DNA from: Planctomycetota bacterium
Lineage (GTDB): Bacteria > Planctomycetota > UBA8742 > UBA2392
DNA: 64,000 bases
Direction: 5' to 3'
Assembly: GCA_027493625.1 (NCBI GenBank)
Contig: JAOSKM010000001.1
Span: 1,938,657 to 2,002,656, forward strand
Part shown: positions 9,924-30,814 of the stretch, in pieces
How positions within the stretch are numbered: position 1 is the stretch's first letter
Layout of the letters: the number at the start of each line of letters is the position of its first letter
Translations under genes and position numbers: made by a program
Notes under the pieces: model-generated
What the model was told of the DNA's origin: nothing
The model's input: only the letters and a program-made list of their open reading frames with translations
The model's database searches: none

Positions 9924-10015
9924 GGGACAGGCACCTTCGGTGCCTGTCCCTTTCAGTGTGCACACGCATCCGCCATGGACGCCGAAAGGGGACAGTCGCC
10001 AAGGTGACTGTCCCC
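9924..10015. repeat. Two-hairpin dispersed repeat, copy 1
   Basis: The first hairpin is GGGACAGGCACC-TTC-GGTGCCTGTCCC (9924-9950), followed by TTT. After a ~37-base spacer containing CCATGGACGCCGAAA comes GGGGACAGTCGCC-AA-GGTGACTGTCCCC (9988-10015) and then GGTTGTGG. The same arrangement recurs at 11448-11542, so this unit and that one flank the gene at 10041-11438 as direct repeats. Confidence 0.9.
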
Positions 10016-28255: not shown

Positions 28256-28304
28256 GTGGCACAGGCGATCCTGCCTGTGAGTGGCACAGGCAATCCTGCC
28301 TGTG
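28256..28304. repeat. Two tandem copies of a 24-bp palindromic repeat
   Basis: GTGGCACAGGCGATCCTGCC... at 28256-28279 and GTGGCACAGGCAATCCTGCC... at 28281-28304 (24 bases each) contain the palindrome CACAGG-...-CCTGTG. A third copy further on (29220-29665) is split by a MITE-like insertion. They lie directly before the gene at 28317. Confidence 0.8.
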
Positions 28305-28316
28305 CGCGGATGCACG

Positions 28317-29213
28317 ATGGCAAAGAAGAAACTCGACCTGGCTACTTTCGAACTTCCCGACGGCAGAAAACGCCGCGGCTCGTTCGTCGTGCGCCTGGCC
28401 CTGCGCCGTCTCTCCCTGCGCCAGCACCGCGATGCCCTCAAGGCCGCCGCGCGCATGGTGCTGGTGCTGCCGGCCCTGCAGGCGGGCCTGCTGGTCGGCG
28501 TGCTGAAGGGCGAGACCTGGATGCTGCTGCTGGGCCTCGAGGGGCTGTTGATCGCCTGGCTGGCAGCCGGGCAGCTTTCGCGCCCCGCGCCGGAAAGCAA
28601 GCTGATCGGCTTCGGCATCGCGCTGCTGAACGCGGTGCTGCTCAGCGCCGTGGGCCTGTTCCTGGGCAGTCACCTGTTCTGGGTAACGGGCGTGCTGGCA
28701 ATGCTGCCGGTGACGGCGCTGGTTTTTTCGGCCACCGGCGCGCGCACGGTGAAGCTGGCATGGCTGGCATTCGGCGCGCCGCTGCTGCTGGTGCTGCTGG
28801 CGTCGGGCGCCGGGCGGGTTGCGATCGAGCTGTCGAAGAGTGAGAGCGACCCCGTGCAGCGCGGGCAGGAGTTGCAGGTCGCCTGGTATGCCCTGCAGTT
28901 CCGCGGCGGCACCGGTACGGAGCGCGCACTGCTGCGCCTGCGCCAGGCGCAGGCGGCCTTCGAGGCGGGTGACTTCAAGGCCTCGTGGGAGTTTGCCGAC
29001 GACGGGCTGTACGACGAACGCCGGCTGTTGCGGGCGATTCCCGCATCGCTGATCGGCTCTGACCTGGTGGAAAGCCTGCTGCGCCTGAAGGCCCAGGCCT
29101 TCTACAACCATGCCTGGGGCAAGCGGGATCAGATCCACACCCCGCTTCCGCCCGAACCACTGGATGAGGAAACCGCCACAGACCCGACGGTGAAGTTGAA
29201 GTGGGGCTGGTAG
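28317..29213 (+). CDS. Polytopic membrane protein of unknown function
   Basis: Not a recognised family. The 298-residue protein starts MAKKKLDLATFELPDG (ATG 28317) and has about four to five hydrophobic helices: AARMVLVLPALQAGLLVGVL, WMLLLGLEGLLIAWLAAG, GIALLNAVLLSAVGLFLG, VTGVLAMLPVTALVFS and LAWLAFGAPLLLVLLASG. A soluble C-terminal part (about residues 185-298) carries TPR-like helices (ALLRLRQAQAAFEAGDFKASWEFADDGLYDERRLL). It could be a small scaffold in the envelope; nothing more can be supported. Confidence 0.75.
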   Translation: MAKKKLDLATFELPDGRKRRGSFVVRLALRRLSLRQHRDALKAAARMVLVLPALQAGLLVGVLKGETWMLLLGLEGLLIAWLAAGQLSRPAPESKLIGFGIALLNAVLLSAVGLFLGSHLFWVTGVLAMLPVTALVFSATGARTVKLAWLAFGAPLLLVLLASGAGRVAIELSKSESDPVQRGQELQVAWYALQFRGGTGTERALLRLRQAQAAFEAGDFKASWEFADDGLYDERRLLRAIPASLIGSDLVESLLRLKAQAFYNHAWGKRDQIHTPLPPEPLDEETATDPTVKLKWGW

Positions 29214-29225
29214 CTGGTGGCACAG

Positions 29226-29656
29226 GCAATCCTGCACAATACTGCGGGGTTAGGCGAAGCAGCCATCGGTTTAGCTCTTTGGCGCGGAGCGCCTGAACAG
29301 TGGAAGCCCCACCGAACGCCTCCGGCGTTCGGTGGGGGTAATCGGCGAAAGAACGATCAAAGGCGCGGAGCGCCGACACACTCGCGGCGCTTGCCGCGAG
29401 TGCCGATCGGCCGCAAGCGGCCGTTGTGCCGGCGCTCCGCGCCTCTCGAACTTCTTTTACCCGTAACCCCCGCCTTGTTGGCGCCTCGCTGCGCTTGGCG
29501 CCAACCGGCGGGGGCTAACATTTGTTACGGCGGTTGCGCTCGCAACGTCCGCTTGGCACCACACTGTGGTGCCGCGGATGCGCCTGACTGCCGACACAAT
29601 CTGCACGTCGGAGTCTGCCGCGAAACTCCTTAACCCCGCAGTATTGGGCAATCCTG
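29226..29656. mobile_element. 413-bp MITE-like element with 9-bp target duplication
   Basis: The 9-bp word GCAATCCTG occurs on both sides (29226-29234 and 29648-29656). Inside it, CAATACTGCGGGGTTA (29237-29252) is perfectly inverted at 29631-29646. Removing the element restores the palindromic host repeat seen at 28281-28304. The interior has no credible gene but at least six hairpins, among them CGAACGCC-TC-CGGCGTTCG, CTCGCGGC-GCTT-GCCGCGAG, CGGCCGCAAGCGGCCG, GGCGCC...GGCGCC and GGCACCAC-ACT-GTGGTGCC. It fills the 455-bp gap between the flanking genes. Confidence 0.8.
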
Positions 29657-29668
29657 CCTGTGCCGCGC

Positions 29669-30814
29669 TCAGGTTTTGGCCTGCCTGAACAATGCCAGCA
29701 GTTGCTCTGCCCGGTGACGGTAGCTGTGTCTGGCGCCTTCCTGGGCGGCATCGGCGGACAACCGACGCGCCAGCGCGGCGTCCGACGCCAGTTCGGTCAG
29801 CGCCGCAGCCAGTGCCCGCGCGTCGCCGGCCTGGTACAGCCTCGCGGTGCGCCCGTCCTGCAGCACCTCCCGCACGCTGGGCACGTCGGCAGCCACGATC
29901 GGCAGGCCCATCGCCAGGTACTCGAACAGCTTGAGCGGCGAGGTGAACCGCGCGCTGATGCTGTGCTCGGGCGGCAGCGGGTGCACCGCGCAGGCGCAGG
30001 TCTTGACGTGTAAAGGGATGTCGGCCTGCCCCACCCGGCCGGTAAGCTCAACGCGCCCGTCCAGGCCCAGCCGCGCGATCTCGGACTTCAGGCGCTGTTC
30101 GTCTTCGGGCTTGCCGCCGCCCACGACTTTCAGGCGCAAACCGGGCGCCAGCACCAGCGCCTCCAGCAGCAGCTCAAGCCCTTTCCAGAACTGCAGCGTG
30201 CCGACCCACGCCACGGTGCGGCCGTCACCGCCCTGCCACACCGGCTTAAACAGGCTGGTGTCCACGGCGCTGGGCACCACGGCGGCCGGGCCGCTGTAGC
30301 CGAAACGGGCGCGGATCTCGTCCAGCAGGCCCTGGGTAATCGCAGCCACACCGGCCGCGCGGGAATAGATGTCGCGCTCAAGCTCGTGCAGCCGCGCCGC
30401 CTCGCGCGCGGGCGCCCCGCGGTCGCGCGCCCAAAGTTCACCGACCAGGTGCGCCTCGTAAGCCAGCGGCAGGTTGACACCTTTGTGGGCGGCGTGCGCG
30501 GCCAGCTTGTCGCTGCGCAGCCACAGCACGTCGGCGCCGGAGTGCGGGACCGCCTTGCGGAACGCGCGGAAATACACGCTGTTGAGCGTCAGGCCCATAC
30601 GTTTGTGCAGGCTGGGAAGCGTGGCGATCTTCAGCCCCGGCGGCAACTCCAGGGCCAGGTGCCGTGCGGCGTACTCGCCCACGCGCTCAACGCTGTCCGG
30701 CGTGTACCAGGTCACCGGCGCCAGCTCGGCGACCGCGGCCAGGCTGCGCACGATCGCCACCCAGCGCGCGCGGCCGGCGTCGATCGGTTCATGGTGCGCG
30801 AACACGACATGCAT
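29669..30814 (-). CDS. GT4-type (family 1) glycosyltransferase
   Basis: A GT-B-fold retaining glycosyltransferase, 381 residues, probably acting on the cytoplasmic face of the membrane in polysaccharide or glycolipid synthesis. The C-terminal nucleotide-sugar domain shows VAWVGTLQFWKGLELLLEAL, LKVVGGGKPEDE, and the E-x7-E-like motif area PPEHSISARFTSPLKLFEYLAMGLPIVAADVPSVREVL (given in pieces: EHSISARFTSPLK, EYLAMGLPIVA). The N-terminal domain begins MHVVFAHHEPIDAG, a typical acceptor-binding start. Donor and acceptor cannot be told. It stands alone, divergent from the GspE-type ATPase gene. Confidence 0.88.
   Translation of the reverse strand: MHVVFAHHEPIDAGRARWVAIVRSLAAVAELAPVTWYTPDSVERVGEYAARHLALELPPGLKIATLPSLHKRMGLTLNSVYFRAFRKAVPHSGADVLWLRSDKLAAHAAHKGVNLPLAYEAHLVGELWARDRGAPAREAARLHELERDIYSRAAGVAAITQGLLDEIRARFGYSGPAAVVPSAVDTSLFKPVWQGGDGRTVAWVGTLQFWKGLELLLEALVLAPGLRLKVVGGGKPEDEQRLKSEIARLGLDGRVELTGRVGQADIPLHVKTCACAVHPLPPEHSISARFTSPLKLFEYLAMGLPIVAADVPSVREVLQDGRTARLYQAGDARALAAALTELASDAALARRLSADAAQEGARHSYRHRAEQLLALFRQAKT

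Follow-up and report, generated by a model that had tools for sequence, protein, structure and literature searches.

The 64,000-nt stretch of DNA analysed here (the window) carries a gene-less MITE in the gap between two convergent ORFs, the first ending at 29213 (+) and the second, which encodes a glycosyltransferase, at 29669 (−). Alignment of copies and inspection of the TIRs place the element proper at 29237-29646 (410 bp, long form). Its ends are perfect 16-bp TIRs, CAATACTGCGGGGTTA, at 29237-29252 (+) and 29631-29646 (−), just as the first-pass annotation had read them. At up to three mismatches, this TIR has three matches in the window versus 0.17 expected by chance. A 12-bp target-site duplication, delimited by comparison with other copies, flanks the element, with GGCAATCCTGCA at 29225-29236 on the left and GGCAATCCTGCC at 29647-29658 on the right. 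The two differ at one position, the last base of the left copy, which is a later base change in the left duplication; GGCAATCCTGC is common to both flanks. The 9-bp duplication described earlier, GCAATCCTG, is present on both sides, but it is only the inner part of the true 12-bp duplication, and the boundaries given with it (29226-29656) cut through both duplications.

Immediately outside the duplications lie GGCACA (29219-29224) and TGTGCC (29659-29664), the left and right outer arms of an interrupted host hairpin, which pair with each other once the element is removed. The host site without the element is GGCACA-GGCAATCCTGCC-TGTGCC, so that excision in silico regains a palindrome, as had been claimed. 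Two near-exact uninterrupted copies of this palindrome are found about 0.9 kb upstream (28256-28278 and 28281-28303); these tandem hairpins, GTGGCACAGGC(A/G)ATCCTGCCTGT at 28256-28303, overlap the start of an ORF at 28281. The arms of the host hairpin vary too much for pattern searches: its consensus matched only 2 places in the same genome. The window also harbors a second, REP-like hairpin family, GGGACAG...CTGTCCC, with six strong hairpins at 9937, 10001, 11460, 11528, 17957, and 50197, four of which form two pairs with a spacing of about 65 bp.

The interior of the element folds strongly on both strands. The RNA minimum free energy gave z = −11.6 (+) and −13.1 (−), and none of 100 shuffled sequences folded as well. 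The three ORFs that overlap the element had no Pfam match at E 1. Rfam gave no match above the gathering score; the best matches were miRNA models far below it, which we rejected as a chance effect of strong hairpins. Folding located a hairpin CCCCACCGAACGCC-TCC-GGCGTTCGGTGGGG at 29307-29337, in which several pairs show compensatory changes among 17 diverged copies. A large branched hairpin, GGCGCGGAGCGCCGACACA ... TGTGCCGGCGCTCCGCGCC, with two inner hairpins, occupies 29361-29443 and was also seen in the alignment of diverged copies. It is followed at 29463-29519 by CCCCCGCC ... GGCGGGGG with a second stem, TTGGCGCC ... GGCGCCAA, for which diverged copies have other stems. A further hairpin stretch at 29528-29578 is present in the two long copies only, and the short copies have GGCGCTCCGCGCC in its place (19-copy alignment).

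In 17 hand-picked diverged copies, the interior architecture is kept while the stems change. Changes on both sides were found at 8 of 59 predicted pairs in this set, and the RNAalifold covariation term was near zero (+0.44) because most pairs do not vary. Whole stems are also swapped, as in L076 (CCCCCAGCG-TAAG-CTGGGGG), and L079 is a mosaic copy. In L079, L088, and L076, whole interior stems have been replaced by others of the same architecture; such replacement could come from module exchange or from repeated nested insertion. To judge from the sequences, the interior is pieced together from exchangeable hairpins, and compensatory changes have largely preserved their structure. As a guess, these hairpins might help to form RNA ends or to stabilize the RNA. 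Interiors that are related but lack clear TIRs are present in this and other genomes and are probably decayed copies. At L084:1302-2035, an intact copy, also recorded as L017, adjoins a decayed copy with eroded TIRs, the flank of which repeats the hairpin GGCTTCCAGCC.

A search of the element's own genome (4.7 Mb, 6 contigs), with the first-pass stretch as query, gave 125 matches in all. Both ends were found at 20 loci, namely 410 bp (the window), 413 bp (L002), seventeen of 368-370 bp, and one of 1561 bp. This planctomycete genome thus has about twenty copies, of which 19 are uninterrupted and full-length and one is split by another IS. Both TIRs were within 2 mismatches at all 20 loci, 19 of them in addition to the window copy. 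The flanks differ among the loci, and each locus has its own duplication of 11 or 12 bp, exact at 18 loci and with one mismatch at two. The direct repeat is thus not explained by the host palindrome alone, because all 20 copies duplicate 11 or 12 bp of 20 different loci. Identity among copies in the same orientation is 91-100%, and the short forms are mostly 98-100% identical, which argues that the burst is young. The 1.56-kb copy (L020:1508-3068) was considered as an autonomous version and rejected; it is a short-form MITE with an unrelated DDE_3 (IS630-like) IS inserted near element position 270.

Among 60 genomes searched, this one included, 11 gave some match. Near full-length copies outside the own genome were found only in one congener (G002), and most other genomes matched pieces of the interior. 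The orthologous gene pair abuts without element or hairpin in all five congeners, and for G002 the flanks of the empty site were read directly. In IMG/VR, the TIR 16-mer matched 42 contigs, each once and none as a pair; we took these matches as chance.

We compared the insertion sites at 35 loci from four genomes (the own genome, one congener, and two sister genera; G000, G002, G007, and G008). A duplication within one mismatch was seen at 31 sites from thirty of these loci; the other five (L070, L073, L094, L143, L144), which had none at that limit, are old or recombined copies. The best palindrome axis lay exactly at the center of the duplication at 30 of 31 sites, the exception being L009. 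Insertion into a palindrome is therefore a rule of the family in its own genome and relatives, not an accident of the window copy, and the suggestion of a non-autonomous transposon inside another repeat family was well founded: the element is a TIR MITE within a host-repeat hairpin. An odd axis (22 sites, among which L009 is counted by its displaced axis) went with 11 bp of duplication, and an even axis with 12 bp (eight sites) or 10 bp (one site). In other words, the duplication length equals 8 + loop, that is, 10, 11, and 12 bp for loops of 2, 3, and 4. A stem score of 6 was reached at 29 of the 31 sites, versus 246 of 127,880 axes (0.19%) in the 64-kb window.

We profiled pairing at 34 sites, the 31 above and three further centered insertions from a wider phylum search. 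The four positions inside and the four positions outside each duplication edge were paired at 30-33 of 34 sites per position, and the fifth outside position at 14 of 34, about chance. These limits define a stem of about 8 bp, in the middle of which the element ends join, so that the duplication is 8 + loop. The phylum search resolved six IS4-type insertions in all, two of which (L215, L231) are off-center and were left out of the pairing profile and of the re-deal test described below; the centering rule therefore does not hold for the family at large. Non-palindromic duplications of 9-10 bp were found at four more transposase copies (L089, L090, L092, L155).

A search for an autonomous transposase with the same ends had been suggested, and an autonomous IS with near-identical ends does exist in a sister genus; none was present in the own assembly (rated 86.9% complete), where five PF01609 genes were found and none matched. 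A homologue of the partner transposase described below was likewise absent from this genome at E 0.001 and by profile search. At two mismatches, the TIR matched 8 of 21 genomes, two of which (G008 and G007) led to transposases. Two sister genera contain full-length autonomous partners; in a third genus, fragments of transposase lie at the edges of contigs. The sister-genus IS in G008 (L152:193-1660; 1468 bp) encodes a 476-aa transposase and has TIRs CAATACTGCGGAATTA / CAATACTGCGGAAATA, the left of which is identical to that of the MITE at 14 of 16 bases. Its 11-bp duplication, GGCGGGACGCT, lies in a palindrome, CACG...CGTG. The transposase (P0001) scored 126 bits against NCBIfam NF033592 'IS4 family transposase' (cut-off 115), also matched PF01609, and harbors D155-D231-E341 (D-D-E spacing 76/110) and the Y(2)R(3)E(6)K signature as YIGRWDIEVHIRTLK; it had no match among solved structures. 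The autonomous relative in G015 (L183) has the ends CAATGCTGCTGGATTA. In G007 we found the 3' part of a transposase gene whose stop codon overlaps the TIR CAATGCTGCGGGATTA, together with gene-less elements of 145 and 187-189 bp that have ends of the CAATGCTGCGGGATTA type and lie in palindromes (L135, L136, L137, L141, L142). Several G007 contigs break just inside this TIR, which a longer repeated element would be expected to cause. YREK is also found in the G015 transposase and the G007 fragment. The GTDB records that carry these transposases are the Planctomycetota MAGs SJ383, SJ126, and SJ201.

For the IS4 subgroup, Table 1 of De Palmenaer et al. (2008; PMC2266710) lists ends -AATR--------WTW, lengths of 1400-1650 bp, duplications of 10-13 bp, and YREK. 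The MITE ends CAATACTGCGGGGTTA and duplications fit this subgroup, the duplications being 10, 11, or 12 bp and hence within its range at every one of the 31 resolved sites; the G008 IS agrees with every listed feature. The likeness thus extends over the ends, the duplication range, the size of the partner, DDE + YREK, and the single ORF; some members of the subgroup are also strongly specific in both target arms (PMC2266710, in the portions available). On the other side, the window copy is gene-less, and the accessible subgroup text (PMC2266710) does not describe a loop-dependent duplication length. The match in ends, duplication length, and YREK/DDE motifs makes the element an IS4-type MITE, where the transposase is filed in the IS4 family by profile matches, motifs, and ends.

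We therefore consider it very likely (probability about 0.88) that the element is a MITE of an IS4-subgroup IS, moved in trans by an IS4-type DDE transposase, and that it inserts mid-stem into short intergenic hairpins, duplicating 8 + loop. DDE chemistry and cut-and-paste movement are established for the IS4 family. An IS4-type DDE transposase supplied in trans would move the MITE by cut-and-paste; its source has probably been lost from the genome, or the enzyme may be borrowed from a related element. We infer the identity of this transposase from the related elements, the nearest known one being from another genus. On each strand, an element end would be joined some 4 bp down from the loop, in the middle of the roughly 8-bp stem. 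Gap repair would then duplicate half-stem, loop, and half-stem, giving the 8 + loop length.

How the target is sensed admits two answers. The same MITE could find its sites by ordinary double-stranded recognition of a symmetric G+C-rich motif, for example GGC(N)5GCC, and meet hairpins by way of one intergenic repeat family that bears the motif; we regard this as quite plausible, if somewhat short of an even chance. A reader of double-stranded DNA can indeed find a symmetric consensus, and the target motif of IS231A, GGG(N)5CCC, is defined by sequence. Base preferences at the edges are strong in our sites, with G at 25 and C at 8 of 34 first inner positions and C at 27 of 34 fourth outer positions. 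Precedent comes from IS4-family consensus targets conserved in both arms (PMC2266710, as available) and from ISRm22, which enters the axis of one REP consensus (PMC1525189). Against such a motif stands the complementarity, which exceeds what base preferences give. At 28 distinct sites, 205 of 224 positions were paired (91.5%), versus a mean of 52.0% and a maximum of 63.4% in 5000 rounds in which the arms were re-dealt. The 17 sites of the own genome, which share related hairpins and hence are not fully independent, gave 92.6% versus a re-deal mean of 63.2% (maximum 77.9%). For G007 alone, with the small sample of 6 distinct sites, pairing was 91.7% and the re-deal maximum also 91.7%, not a significant excess. 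Moreover, loop length shifts the duplication by one base, and hairpins of unrelated sequence are hit in other genera (L141, L212, L229, L237). These observations suggest that the enzyme may read DNA shape or symmetry, not a fixed sequence. It is possible, though we say so tentatively, that this is a DDE cut-and-paste lineage that recognizes the folded hairpin, be it an extruded cruciform or a hairpin formed while the template is briefly single-stranded, and attacks the two strands at mid-stem, so that the duplication length would come from the target and not from active-site spacing. Recognition of the fold is favored by the fact that a double-stranded reader cannot directly check the match of two variable arms.

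Two further explanations concern the element itself. Cross-mobilization by the resident IS4-like DUF4372 element (L089, L090, L092; ends CACTACTGTCCGGTTAA) has in its favor three resolved copies and four near-identical transposase genes in the own genome, and its ends have CA, TACTG, and GGTTA in common with the MITE. We nevertheless judge it improbable and rejected this element as the best partner, since its duplications are 9 bp and non-palindromic at three of three resolved copies, versus 11-12 bp in hairpins for the MITE; the DUF4372 domain is also missing from the G008 transposase. The stretch might instead be a host structure, either a BIME-like REP array or a structured RNA gene, with the TIRs as its closing stem and the flank repeat as the host palindrome. 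The very strong fold, the compensatory changes, and the presence, elsewhere in this genome and in its relatives, of related interiors that lack good TIRs would suit this idea, which is refuted by copies with different duplications and retains hardly any credibility. Ends are common to the 20 loci while the flanks differ and each has its own 11-12-bp duplication, the congeners show no trace at the orthologous place, and even the diverged copies L076, L082, and L088 retain TIR remnants and duplications.

The IS4-subgroup MITE favored here has several known counterparts. Insertion of the IS4 family at REP axes is already known from ISRm22 of Sinorhizobium, all copies of which lie in REP palindromes at the symmetry axis according to the available text (Tobes and Pareja, 2006; PMC1525189). 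It resembles our MITE in using a palindrome axis as target and differs in that it is a complete IS that encodes a transposase, has direct repeats of 6 bp, and uses one conserved REP consensus; unlike the family here, no MITE and no loop-dependent duplication appear in the text accessible to us (PMC1525189). Targeting of stem-loops is likewise known from IS1272 (IS1182 group), for which the available portions report 'replacement by structure-dependent transposition', with inverted repeats of unlike sequence targeted and the stem-loop deleted (PMC5678879). Its authors also sketched cruciform pathways, as hypotheses, in which either the stem-loop or the loop would be duplicated (PMC5678879, same portions). 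The likeness lies in inverted-repeat targets of differing sequence; IS1272 makes no duplication, whereas the family here duplicates half the stem plus the loop, between the two hypothetical pathways (PMC5678879, as far as available). All 31 resolved sites have duplications, which does not agree with target deletion of the IS1272 type. A hairpin-recognizing lineage, if true, would correspond to the structure-dependent transposition hypothesized for IS1272, with the difference that it makes a TSD.

IS231A and the MIC231 cassettes of the Bacillus cereus group have ends that start with CA, a symmetric target, and non-autonomous derivatives. They are like our family in these CA-starting IS4-family ends, in duplications of 10-12 bp, in the symmetric target, and in the non-autonomous forms, and differ in ends of the CAT... 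type, in host, and in the sequence-defined motif GGG(N)5CCC. The 10-12 bp range is given for IS231 in the consulted part of PMC2266710.

REPIN/BIME elements and their RAYTs recall the host hairpins, which are intergenic palindromes. A RAYT is a tyrosine HUH enzyme that acts on single-stranded DNA and is not known to make a target duplication; the MITE, by contrast, has TIRs and 11-12-bp duplications. The own genome contains 24 Y1_Tnp (PF01797) genes, for example at L252 (hairpins at 1332 and 1914), L255, and L257, and several of six viewed are flanked by inverted hairpins, as RAYTs are with REPs. One such gene (L253) adjoins the MITE copy L019. In the literature searched, where subscription journals are incompletely covered, we found neither this MITE nor an IS4-type MITE in Planctomycetota nor a loop-dependent duplication; within that coverage, the 8 + loop rule was not encountered before.

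In DDE transposases, the stagger at the target is usually thought to be set by the enzyme. Here it follows the hairpin loop base for base at 31 sites in four genomes, with arms that vary under kept complementarity. If structure is read, the lineage would offer a natural means of inserting DNA into hairpins, which are safe sites between convergent genes, at terminators, and in REPs, and it could be tested directly whether a DDE transposase senses cruciforms in the cell. Whether or not structure is read, the MITE family accounts for one class of intergenic repeats in Planctomycetota genomes.
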